A stretch of 64,000 nucleotides of DNA from assembly GCF_005403045.1 (NCBI RefSeq), contig NZ_BJCL01000021.1:1-64000 (forward strand). Direction: 5' to 3'. The first letter of the stretch is position 1; each line of letters begins with the position of its first letter. This stretch comes from Pseudaquabacterium pictum. GTDB lineage: Bacteria > Pseudomonadota > Gammaproteobacteria > Burkholderiales > Burkholderiaceae_C. A program made the position numbers and the translations under genes. Positions 12,349 to 15,308 of this stretch are shown here, piece by piece. The notes under the pieces are model-generated. The model did no database searches and was not told where the DNA came from. It saw only the letters and a program-made list of their open reading frames with translations.

Positions 12349-13228
12349 GTTGACCCTCCTGCGCCTTGTCGGCCGTGCCCACGCGCTGCATCCAGTTGTA
12401 GAGGATGAAGCTCAGCGCCAGGATGATCAGGAAGTAGATCAGCGAGAACGCCGCCGCCGGGCCGAGGTCGAACTGGCCCACCGCCTTCTGCGTCAGGTAC
12501 TGGCTCAGGAAGGTGGTGGCGTTGCCGGGCCCGCCGCCGGTCAGCACGAACGGCTCGGTGTAGATCATGAAGCTGTCCATGAAGCGCAGCAGCACCGCGA
12601 TCACCAGCACGCCGCGCAGCTTGGGCAGCTGGATGTAGCGGAACACCGCGAACTTGCTGGCGCCGTCGATGCTGGCAGCCTGGTAGTAGGCATCGGGGAT
12701 GGCGCGCAGGCCGGCAAAGCACAGCAGCGCCACCAGCGGTGTCCAGTGCCACACATCCATCAGCAGCACCGTGAGCCAGGCATGGGTGGGGTTGCCGGTG
12801 TAGCTGTACTCGATGCCCAGCCCCGCCAGCGCGGCGCCCATCAGGCCGATGTCGGCACGGCCGTAGATCTGCCAGATGGTGCCGACCACGTTCCAGGGGA
12901 TCAGCAGCGAGATGGCCACGGTGACCAGCACCGCGCTGCTCTGCCAGCCCTTGGCCGGCATGGCCAGCGCCAGCGCGATGCCCAGCGGGATCTCCACCGC
13001 CAGCACCGCCAGCGAGAACGTGATCTGCCGCAGCAGCGCGCCCTGCAGGTCTTCATCCCGCATCACCGCCTTGAACCACTCGGTGCCGACGAAGACGCGC
13101 CGCTCGGGGCTGATGATGTCCTGCACCGAGTAGTTGACCACCGTCATCAGCGGCAGGATGGCCGAGAAGGCCACGCACAGCACCACCGGCAGGATCAGGA
13201 ACCAGGCTTTCTGATTCACCGGTTTCAT
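12341..13228 (-). CDS. glpP: Glycerol ABC transporter permease GlpP
   Basis: A 295-residue inner-membrane permease of the MalF-like type with six helices and a periplasmic loop. The EAA loop lies near residues 175-203: GLRAIPDAYYQAASIDGAS then RYIQLPKL, containing the conserved A-(x)2-DGA pattern. It is the heterodimer partner of GlpQ. The start at 13228 (MKPVNQKAWFLILP) places a short cytoplasmic tail before helix 1 and nearly abuts the stop of glpT (13225), with a four-base ATGA-type overlap. An upstream in-frame start would add 20 residues unlike the family. Confidence 0.9.
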   Translation of the reverse strand: MKPVNQKAWFLILPVVLCVAFSAILPLMTVVNYSVQDIISPERRVFVGTEWFKAVMRDEDLQGALLRQITFSLAVLAVEIPLGIALALAMPAKGWQSSAVLVTVAISLLIPWNVVGTIWQIYGRADIGLMGAALAGLGIEYSYTGNPTHAWLTVLLMDVWHWTPLVALLCFAGLRAIPDAYYQAASIDGASKFAVFRYIQLPKLRGVLVIAVLLRFMDSFMIYTEPFVLTGGGPGNATTFLSQYLTQKAVGQFDLGPAAAFSLIYFLIILALSFILYNWMQRVGTADKAQEGQHG

Positions 13229-14259
13229 GCCACCAACTCCTCGGCATCGTTGTAGAAGCAGGTGTGCGGGTTCAGCAGGCCCAGCCACACGCTGTCGCCG
13301 GCCGAGGGCACGGCCTGTTCGGGCCGCAGGCGGGCGCGCACCACGCTGCCGTCGGCCAGGGCGGCGGTCAGCAGCCAGTAGGTGCCGATGTCCTGCACCT
13401 GGCGCACGGTGGCCGGCAGGGCGCCTGCGGCCTGCGGGTCGGCCAGGGCCACGTACTCGGGCCGCACGCCCAGGGTCTTGGCGCCAGCCGGGCTGCCGGG
13501 CAGCAGCTGCGCCGGCAGGAAGTTCATGCCCGGCGAGCCGATGAAGTGGCCGACGAAGGTGTGCTGCGGCCGCTCGAACAGATCGGACGCGCTGCCCACC
13601 TGCACCGCGCGGCCACGGGTCATCACCACCACCTGGTCGGCGAAGGTCAGCGCTTCCACCTGGTCATGCGTCACATAGACCAGCGTGAGCTTCAACTCCT
13701 GGTGGATCTGCTTGAGCTTGCGGCGCAGCTGCCACTTCAGGTGCGGGTCGATCACCGTCAGCGGTTCGTCGAACAGCACGGCCGACACATCCTCGCGCAC
13801 CAGGCCACGGCCCAGGCTGATCTTCTGCTTGGCATCGGCCGCCAGGCCGGCGGCGCGGGTGTTGAGCTGGCCGCTGAGTTCCAGCATCTCGGCGATCTTG
13901 CCGACGCGCTGTCGGATCTTGTCAGCCGGCACGCCGCGGTTGCGCAGCGGAAAGGCCAGGTTCTCGGCCACCGTCATGGTGTCGTAGATCACCGGGAACT
14001 GGAACACCTGGGCGATGTTGCGCTGCTGTGGCGTCCTGGTGTTCATCGTCTCGCCGTTGAACTTCACCGTGCCATGCGACGGCGCCACCAGGCCCGAGAT
14101 GATGTTGAGCATGGTGGTCTTGCCGCAGCCCGACGGGCCCAGCAGCGCATAGGCGCCGCCATCGGCAAAGGTCATCTTCAGCGGCAGCAGCGCGTAGTCA
14201 CCATCCGCCTGCGGGTTGGGCTTGTAGCTGTGCGCCAGGTCCAGGTCGATGCGGGCCAT
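13225..14259 (-). CDS. glpT: Glycerol ABC transporter ATPase GlpT, degenerate signature motif
   Basis: A 344-residue CUT1-type ATPase with a C-terminal TOBE-like regulatory domain (about 240-344). Walker A is GPSGCGKTT (41-49), the Q-loop is Q87, Walker B is VLFDEP (161-166) and the H-loop histidine is H198 (VYVTHDQVEAL), all intact. The signature motif is not LSGGQ: the aligned residues are LAADAKQK (139-146), lacking the Ser-Gly-Gly that contacts ATP in the partner subunit. It therefore should supply a working nucleotide-binding face but a poor signature face. Its ATG overlaps the glpS stop by one base (TGATG). The open frame extends far upstream through glpS only as a shadow. Confidence 0.9.
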   Translation of the reverse strand: MARIDLDLAHSYKPNPQADGDYALLPLKMTFADGGAYALLGPSGCGKTTMLNIISGLVAPSHGTVKFNGETMNTRTPQQRNIAQVFQFPVIYDTMTVAENLAFPLRNRGVPADKIRQRVGKIAEMLELSGQLNTRAAGLAADAKQKISLGRGLVREDVSAVLFDEPLTVIDPHLKWQLRRKLKQIHQELKLTLVYVTHDQVEALTFADQVVVMTRGRAVQVGSASDLFERPQHTFVGHFIGSPGMNFLPAQLLPGSPAGAKTLGVRPEYVALADPQAAGALPATVRQVQDIGTYWLLTAALADGSVVRARLRPEQAVPSAGDSVWLGLLNPHTCFYNDAEELVA

Positions 14260-15308
14260 CAGCGTTGCCCTCCGCGTTCCGGCGCGCGCAACAGGCGGCC
14301 GTCGGCGCCGAACACATGCACGGCAGCCGGGTCCAGGTGCAGCGTGATGGCCGCGCCCAGGTCGAAGAAATGCACGCCGGTCAGCTGGGCCACCAGCTCG
14401 CCGGCGGCGGTGTGCACATGCACGAAGGTGTCGCTGCCCGAGATCTCGGCCAGCTCCACCGTGCCGGGCAGGGCGATGTCGCCCGCGCGGGCCTGCACCC
14501 GCAACGCGCTGGCGCGCAGGCCGATGGTGGCATCGGCCGGGGCGCTGCCCGCGGGCAGACCGAGCCGTGCCGCACCCTGGTCCAGCAGGTTCATCGGCGG
14601 ATCGCTGAAGGCCTTGGCCACGCGGATGCTGGCCGGGCGGTGGAAGACCTCGGCCGTGGGGCCGTACTGCAGCAGTTCGCCGGCATCCATCACGGCCGTC
14701 CAGCCGCCCAGCAGCAGGGCCTCGGTGGGCTCGGTGGTGGCATAGACCACGGTGGAGTTGCCGGCGGCGAACAGCGCCGACAGCTCCTCGCGCAGTTCCT
14801 CGCGCAGCTTGTAGTCGAGGTTGACCAGCGGCTCGTCCAGCAGCATCAGCGGCGCATCCTTGGCCAGCGCGCGGGCCAGGGCCACCCGCTGCTGCTGGCC
14901 GCCGGACAGCTCGGCCGGCAGGCGCTGGAGGAACGGATCGATGTGCAGCTTGTCGGCCAGGGCCTGCACCCGCTGGTTGATGGCCGCGGCATCCATCCCG
15001 CCGCGCAGCTTCAGCGGCGAGGCGATGTTGTCGAACACCGTCATCGACGGGTAGTTGATGAACTGCTGGTAGACCATGGCCACATTGCGCTGGCGCACCG
15101 GCAGGCCGGTGACGTCGACACCATCGACGGCCACGCGGCCGCGGCTGGGCACGTCCAGCCCGGCCATCAGCCGCATCAGCGTGGTCTTGCCGGCTTGCGT
15201 GGCGCCCAGCAGCACCGTCACCGTGTCGGGCTGCAGCTGCAGGTTCAGCGGGTACAGGTGCGTGGCCGCGCCCACCTGGTGCTGCAGGTCGGTCAGCGTC
15301 AGCTGCAT
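14259..15308 (-). CDS. glpS: Glycerol ABC transporter ATPase GlpS, H-loop histidine replaced
   Basis: A 349-residue CUT1-type ATPase with a C-terminal TOBE-like domain (about 235-349). Walker A is GATQAGKTT (35-43), the Q-loop is Q81, the signature LSGGQQQR (134-141) is canonical and Walker B is LMLLDEP (154-160). The H-loop reads VYATTEPTEAL: the catalytic switch histidine is replaced by T192 and the following Asp by E193. It thus complements GlpT, which has the histidine but no signature. Start at 15308 overlaps the glpD stop by ten bases; the ORF upstream of it is a shadow of glpD. As both ATPase genes are adjacent and distinct, a GlpS-GlpT heterodimer is expected. Confidence 0.9.
   Translation of the reverse strand: MQLTLTDLQHQVGAATHLYPLNLQLQPDTVTVLLGATQAGKTTLMRLMAGLDVPSRGRVAVDGVDVTGLPVRQRNVAMVYQQFINYPSMTVFDNIASPLKLRGGMDAAAINQRVQALADKLHIDPFLQRLPAELSGGQQQRVALARALAKDAPLMLLDEPLVNLDYKLREELREELSALFAAGNSTVVYATTEPTEALLLGGWTAVMDAGELLQYGPTAEVFHRPASIRVAKAFSDPPMNLLDQGAARLGLPAGSAPADATIGLRASALRVQARAGDIALPGTVELAEISGSDTFVHVHTAAGELVAQLTGVHFFDLGAAITLHLDPAAVHVFGADGRLLRAPERGGQR

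Follow-up and report, generated by a model that had tools for sequence, protein, structure and literature searches.

The window analysed here, a stretch of 64,000 nucleotides from Pseudaquabacterium pictum (contig NZ_BJCL01000021.1), carries a glpSTPQUV operon on the minus strand (positions 9406-15308, assigned with Pfam), in which glpS and glpT encode two different ATPase subunits of a putative glycerol ATP-binding cassette (ABC) importer. The ATG of glpT overlaps the TGA of glpS, and the ATG of glpP (13228-13226) overlaps the glpT stop codon. Both ATPases matched ABC_tran and TOBE_2 above the Pfam cut-offs, which places them among CUT1/MalK-type subunits by domain content; their best NCBIfam model was UgpC, at 233 bits for GlpS and 263 bits for GlpT, far under the cut-off of 432. 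Judged from sequence, the pair departs from the CUT1 arrangement, in which two copies of a single ATPase form two canonical sites: GlpS and GlpT have complementary losses in their ATP-site motifs, and these losses are a fixed trait of the family. The features of the locus are collected in Table 1.

Table 1. Genes of the glp locus and ATP-site motifs of GlpS and GlpT (window positions; residue numbers of each protein)
Feature	Position	Strand	Assignment
GlpS, MalK/UgpC-type ATPase subunit, 349 aa	14259..15308	-	Pfam ABC_tran + TOBE_2; model nearest MalK 2awn
GlpS A-loop position Val12, without aromatic	15273..15275	-	
GlpS Walker A GATQAGKT (35-42), Lys kept, position 4 = Gln38	15183..15206	-	
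GlpS signature LSGGQ (134-138), canonical	14895..14909	-	
GlpS Walker B Asp158-Glu159 and D-loop VNLD (162-165); DEPL at 158	14814..14837	-	
GlpS Thr192 at H-loop His position (VYATTEP from 188)	14733..14735	-	
GlpT, MalK/UgpC-type ATPase subunit, 344 aa	13225..14259	-	Pfam ABC_tran + TOBE_2
GlpT A-loop aromatic Tyr12, canonical	14224..14226	-	
GlpT Walker A GPSGCGKT (41-48), canonical	14116..14139	-	
GlpT degenerate signature LAADAKQK (139-146)	13822..13845	-	
GlpT Asp142, fourth signature position	13834..13836	-	
GlpT Walker B Asp164-Glu165 and D-loop TVID (168-171); DEPL at 164	13747..13770	-	
GlpT H-loop His198 kept (VYVTHDQ)	13666..13668	-	
GlpP permease	12341..13228	-	Pfam BPD_transp_1
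GlpQ permease	11536..12348	-	Pfam BPD_transp_1
GlpU, small membrane protein	11228..11536	-	Pfam DUF2160
GlpV, solute-binding protein	9406..11139	-	Pfam SBP_bac_1
GlpD-like FAD oxidoreductase open reading frame, upstream	15299..17065	-	Pfam DAO
GlpR-like DeoR-family regulator, divergent	17044..17919	+	Pfam HTH_DeoR + DeoRC
GlpK-like FGGY kinase, divergent	17916..19409	+	Pfam FGGY_N + FGGY_C

A sequence-only reading of the window had proposed that GlpS combines an intact LSGGQ with Thr192 in place of the H-loop His, and that GlpT combines an intact His198 with LAADAKQK in place of the signature. Motif reading and alignment with HMMER to solved MalK-family chains, in which Thr192 of GlpS stood opposite the His of VTHD and LAADA of GlpT opposite LSGGQ, showed this assignment to be right to the residue. 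In MalK, His192 and Glu159 are named as catalytic (PMC8134467), and a composite ATP site consists of the Walker A and B motifs and the A-, Q-, and H-loops of one subunit together with the signature of the other (PMC7756269). Both losses lie in one composite site, as the same reading had claimed, and the second site is intact. Further departures, which the sequence-only reading had not listed, fall in the altered site, namely Val12 at the A-loop position and Gln38 in Walker A of GlpS, and the TVID D-loop of GlpT, which we take to belong to the same composite site as the GlpT signature. The description of this site as doubly degenerate held for the His and the signature, but not for the rest of the GlpS core, which retains the Walker A Lys, the Q-loop Gln, and the Walker B Asp and Glu.

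To examine the distribution of these losses, we collected homologous operons with two baits. GlpV, which is blind to the ATPase motifs, gave 89 matching places in 87 of the 398 genomes searched within the phylum, and the best 80 of 595 relatives from a scan of a public genome set were added; 169 loci, including the window, were examined in this step, and 156 of them encoded both ATPases at a classification threshold of 80 bits. Whole-length GlpT was used as bait in two further orders, with matches in 135 of 195 and 34 of 194 genomes. Of these matches, 46 from the first order and every one of the 34 from the second were read, together with the operon of Rhizobium leguminosarum WSM1325, giving 81 loci, of which 80 carried both genes at a looser threshold of 60 bits. 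The resulting 236 pairs comprised 220 distinct ones, or 221 with the pair of one divergent locus (L337), which lay below the classification threshold and was added after its sequence had been read. The pairs formed 29 clusters at 70% and 12 clusters at 60% joint identity; the searches hardly reached beyond the phylum of the window. In a plasmid collection, 257 records matched GlpT, and one of these, the WSM1325 plasmid, was read; its GlpS/GlpT pair showed the same losses. Two Streptomyces plasmid records, from outside Pseudomonadota, matched GlpT at E values of 1e-70 or better, but did not appear among the matches listed in a looser search with the Rhizobium GlpT.

The sequence-only reading had suggested that co-occurrence of the two losses be checked in homologues. 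The loss of the GlpS His and that of the GlpT signature were both present in all 221 distinct pairs, and a GlpS with His or a GlpT with LSGGQ was found in none. GlpS residue 192 was Thr in 181 pairs and Ser in 40. The third signature position of GlpT was Ala (182), Pro (38), or Leu (1), and the fourth was Asp in 219 pairs, Ala in one (L044, in which an Asp follows one place on), and Phe in one (L337), but never Gly. The complementary motifs were kept: LSGGQ was intact in GlpS of all 219 readable pairs (one gap, one masked), and His198 in GlpT of all 221. The GlpT residues of the second site (Tyr12, Gly44, Lys47, Gln87, Asp164, Glu165, and His198) and the GlpS residues Asn163, Leu164, and Asp165, which form the D-loop of that site, were identical in 221/221; the first D-loop position of GlpS was Val (121) or Ala (100) and was variable among control ATPases as well. 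The complementary losses are thus a fixed family trait.

The additional departures were less uniform. The A-loop position of GlpS was Val in 204 of 221 pairs and aromatic in two, and position 4 of its Walker A was Leu (89), Gln (80), Gly (37), or another residue (13), with two gaps. The GlpT D-loop TVID was nearly invariant (T 221, V 219, I 220, and D 220). Altogether, five departures were counted in the GlpS-core site and none in the GlpT-core site; since the five are not independent and two of them are not fixed, no probability was attached to this contrast. The Walker A Lys was present in GlpS of all 219 readable pairs and in all 221 GlpT, and Walker B Asp and Glu were kept in both subunits of every pair, so that the degenerate site does not have a changed Walker B Glu (GlpS Glu159 in 221/221).

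The L337 locus holds the most divergent glp operon of the set, with the GlpT signature ISLFEKQ, the D-loop TAVE, and the H-loop TSSD in the GlpS-like subunit. Here, the same asymmetry is built from different residues.

As controls, we read 49 other ATPase open reading frames: 28 come from the genome of the window, and the remaining 21 lie at 19 other loci. The latter loci were picked among the weaker matches to a GlpS bait, a twentieth pick having fallen in the own genome. Scoring of 150 out of 250 candidates in that genome gave at least 145 matches to ABC_tran, only part of which were read as controls. All 49 controls retained the Walker B Asp-Glu and the His of the H-loop, and had Gly as the fourth signature residue. 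Because none of the controls lacks the His or the fourth signature Gly and all 221 pairs show both losses, the losses are not attributable to chance. The controls also had Phe or Tyr at the A-loop position in 48 cases and His in one, Gly at Walker A position 4 in all 49, and D-loops ending in N-L-D or A-L-D (45), G-L-D (3), or G-V-D (1). At one control locus (L229, 4788-7081), two other CUT1 ATPases are encoded in tandem and both are canonical, which indicates that pairing by itself is not enough to bring about the losses.

The codons of the replacement residues were compared in 156 pairs. GlpS residue 192 was encoded by ACC (126), ACG (12), ACT (7), ACA (6), or Ser codons of the TCN type (5), and GlpT residue 142 by GAC (98), GAT (57), or GCC (1). 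Because different codons are used for the same conserved residues, these data point to purifying selection on the replacement residues, and the synonymous changes at Thr192 and Asp142 argue against drift. Relaxed drift, with one subunit having lost its importance, would fit the variation at the A-loop position and at Walker A position 4 of GlpS, but it conflicts with the conservation of the replacements at GlpS 192 and GlpT 142 over the 29 clusters despite synonymous turnover, and with the invariance of most other motif positions of both subunits; we consider drift highly improbable.

In a tree with 34 control ATPases, GlpS and GlpT each formed one clade with a support of 100 in the Shimodaira-Hasegawa-like approximate likelihood-ratio test, and the two clades grouped together with a support of 92. 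The simplest reading of this quick tree, in which both stems are long, is that one ancient duplication gave rise to the two subunits, which then divided the labour between them. A coupling of GlpS Ser192 to Pro141 and Asn143 of GlpT, seen in 37 of 221 pairs, was also considered and rejected: on an 89-row tree, each change was needed only twice, and the two independent pairs were not significant.

Next, we considered whether GlpS and GlpT act together. All 156 GlpV-bait loci with GlpS also held GlpT, and GlpT occurred without GlpS in two of 158, both cut by a contig end. Among 170 pair-bearing loci of at least 9 kb, which were selected for both ATPases but not for gene order, glpS stood directly before glpT in every case, even where GlpV, GlpD, or the permeases had moved. 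From the motifs, neither homodimer would have a canonical site, since the His would be missing from both sites of a GlpS dimer and the signature from both sites of a GlpT dimer, whereas a GlpS-GlpT heterodimer would have exactly one. It is accordingly very unlikely that the two subunits are unpaired, each working as a homodimer or one serving as a regulatory subunit; this possibility gains something from a coevolution analysis that was uninformative, but it has to explain the co-occurrence of the genes except at contig ends in the GlpV-bait set, their invariant order, and the full site that only the heterodimer pairing gives.

The operon itself has the composition of a glycerol importer, with two ATPases, two permeases, a DUF2160 protein, and a binding protein, and with genes of the glpD, glpK, and glpR type nearby. 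An identical gene set, in the order glpR-glpD-S-T-P-Q-U-V-glpK, is present on plasmid pR132504 of R. leguminosarum WSM1325, and uptake of glycerol via this ABC system is reported for R. leguminosarum VF39 (PMC7912956). By orthology, the operon of the window would likewise import glycerol. The 170 loci selected for GlpS and GlpT encoded GlpP in 170, GlpQ in 170, GlpV in 169, GlpU in 166, and GlpD in 133 cases. In the window, the true start of the GlpD-like gene probably lies inside the open reading frame given in Table 1.

A reciprocal search with GlpS in the same 398 genomes yielded 85 orthologues at 268 bits or more, followed by a gap, other ATPases reaching at most 218 bits. All 85 genomes were GlpV-positive, and the two GlpV genomes without GlpS (G350 and G330) carry orphan GlpV loci. 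Thirteen of the 169 loci lacked the GlpS/GlpT pair; nine of these begin at a contig end less than about 3.3 kb upstream of GlpV, so that their ATPase genes appear to be cut off. At four orphan GlpV-like loci (L084, L087, L088, and L089), a search for the two ATPases gave no GlpS or GlpT match in the fetched stretches. Near the GlpV-like gene of each of the four lies a small SBP_bac_3-like open reading frame (L084 7480-8292, L087 4596-5699, L088 7086-7868, and L089 4870-5625), of which one matched above the Pfam cut-off and three below. GlpV perhaps serves as a sensor at these loci, or has been rewired to another use.

Taken together, these data make it likely that the GlpPQ(U)V glycerol importer is driven by GlpS and GlpT as an obligate heterodimer in which one ATP site is hydrolytic; assembly of the heterodimer, nucleotide occupancy, and hydrolysis at a single site are steps that we infer. 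Site 1, comprising the Walker A and B motifs and the A-, Q-, and H-loops of GlpT with the LSGGQ and V/A-NLD of GlpS, would be canonical and would hydrolyse ATP. In site 2, the GlpS core, without the His and mostly without the A-loop aromatic, would face the L-x-(A/P)-D signature and TVID D-loop of GlpT. This site should be able to hold nucleotide, because the Walker A Lys and the Walker B Asp and Glu remain, and it should fail to complete the catalytic sandwich, because the His contacting the gamma-phosphate is gone and an acidic side chain occupies the fourth signature position. Its role might be structural or regulatory, as in heterodimeric exporters and CFTR. For Pdr5, the degenerate site is reported to have a function (PMC7756269).

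The CFTR mutation G551D severely lowers ATP-dependent gating, and G550E is written LSEGQ (PMC10202470), which identifies G551 as the fourth signature residue; the position of Asp142 in GlpT is therefore the one altered in G551D. This correspondence is a hint that ABC proteins can conserve, and presumably function with, a G551D-like Asp in the signature. It also bears on a heterodimer in which both sites hydrolyse, where the Thr/Ser and Asp variants would be tolerated owing to the retained Lys of Walker A and Glu of Walker B, and where the asymmetry would only tune rates. Such tolerance would agree with the Walker B Asp and Glu in both subunits of all 221 pairs, with the Walker A Lys in all readable ones, and with the proposal that the heterodimeric importer DppDF hydrolyses two ATP (PMC12136057). 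It is harder to reconcile with the severe gating effect of the same Asp in CFTR (PMC10202470), the conservation of Thr/Ser192 and Asp142 despite codon turnover, and the concentration of departures in one site, and we regard hydrolysis at both sites as unlikely.

Several observations weigh against the one-site heterodimer. GlpS retains its Walker B Glu in every pair, so that slow hydrolysis at site 2 is possible, and the departures at the A-loop (two aromatic) and at Walker A position 4 (37 Gly) are not fixed in GlpS. Mutual information between GlpS and GlpT gave no clear interface signal over the 221 pairs (effective number about 81), with top values of 0.45 between and 0.46 within subunits. 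The family is probably of one origin, and the 221 pairs are not 221 independent events. In the structure models, GlpS had a mean predicted local distance difference test (pLDDT) score of 86.9 and a TM-score of 0.91 to MalK 2awn; the GlpT model had a fold nearest MalK-family chains at low confidence, with pLDDT below 50 at residues 129-150, so that the model is poor exactly at the altered signature LAADA. Finally, Cupriavidus metallidurans without this ABC system still uses glycerol for growth (PMC7912956), so that the import role there and in the window is assigned by orthology.

If the one-site heterodimer is accepted, a more tentative and rather doubtful extension is that the system is a half-price importer, a type I importer spending one ATP instead of two per small substrate. 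Site 2 would be locked out by the natural counterpart of G551D together with the loss of the H-loop His, and glycerol, a three-carbon substrate that costs a further ATP at the kinase, would be taken up for one ATP. The debate on whether type I importers hydrolyse one or two ATP per substrate has drawn mostly on MalK dimers that were engineered or mutated. The one-site design seems to have been fixed by evolution in the class of the window and in other classes of its phylum; as a natural MalK-family one-site importer, it would allow the ATP stoichiometry, and what the silent site does, to be measured without engineering, and would let the question of one or two ATP be tested in a natural system.

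The same operon, glpSTPQUV, is described as a glycerol uptake system of R. leguminosarum in a paper that mentions neither Walker nor signature motifs (PMC7912956). Two different ATPase genes for a heterodimer are also found in the DppBCDF and OppBCDF peptide importers; for DppDF, hydrolysis of both ATP has been proposed (PMC12136057), whereas one-site hydrolysis is proposed here for GlpS and GlpT. TAP, TM287/288, BmrCD, and CFTR resemble GlpS/GlpT in having one canonical and one degenerate site, with the signature lost in one half and the core changed in the other, although the first three are exporters and CFTR is a channel, while the GlpST system is an importer. In human ABC proteins, the signature is altered in every degenerate site; next in frequency comes an altered Walker B Glu, which is often accompanied by H-loop deviations (PMC7756269). 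GlpS, by contrast, loses the His and keeps the Walker B Glu in 221/221, a pattern different from that of the degenerate sites of exporters.

The sequence-only reading had also known of no description of such asymmetry for a CUT1-type importer. No description of ATP-site asymmetry in a CUT1 importer was found in the open-access literature searched, which is weak evidence of absence, but for importers at large the novelty does not hold: in RbsA/NupO-type importers, one site has been judged degenerate from sequence, as in GlpS/GlpT (PMC11466899). Those are type II importers with fused nucleotide-binding domains, in which the Walker A Lys of the second half is lost (PMC11466899), whereas GlpS and GlpT are separate MalK-type chains that keep this Lys. 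The GlpST system shares with Escherichia coli MalFGK2 and other CUT1 type I importers the ABC_tran and TOBE_2 ATPase, two permeases, and one binding protein; however, those systems use two copies of MalK, whose two sites are alike (PMC8134467), whereas GlpS and GlpT are two diverged ATPases with complementary losses. Degenerate sites themselves are already known in exporters and RbsA-type importers; what appears to be new, as far as the open-access literature searched shows, is a MalK-type (CUT1) importer with a fixed degenerate site.

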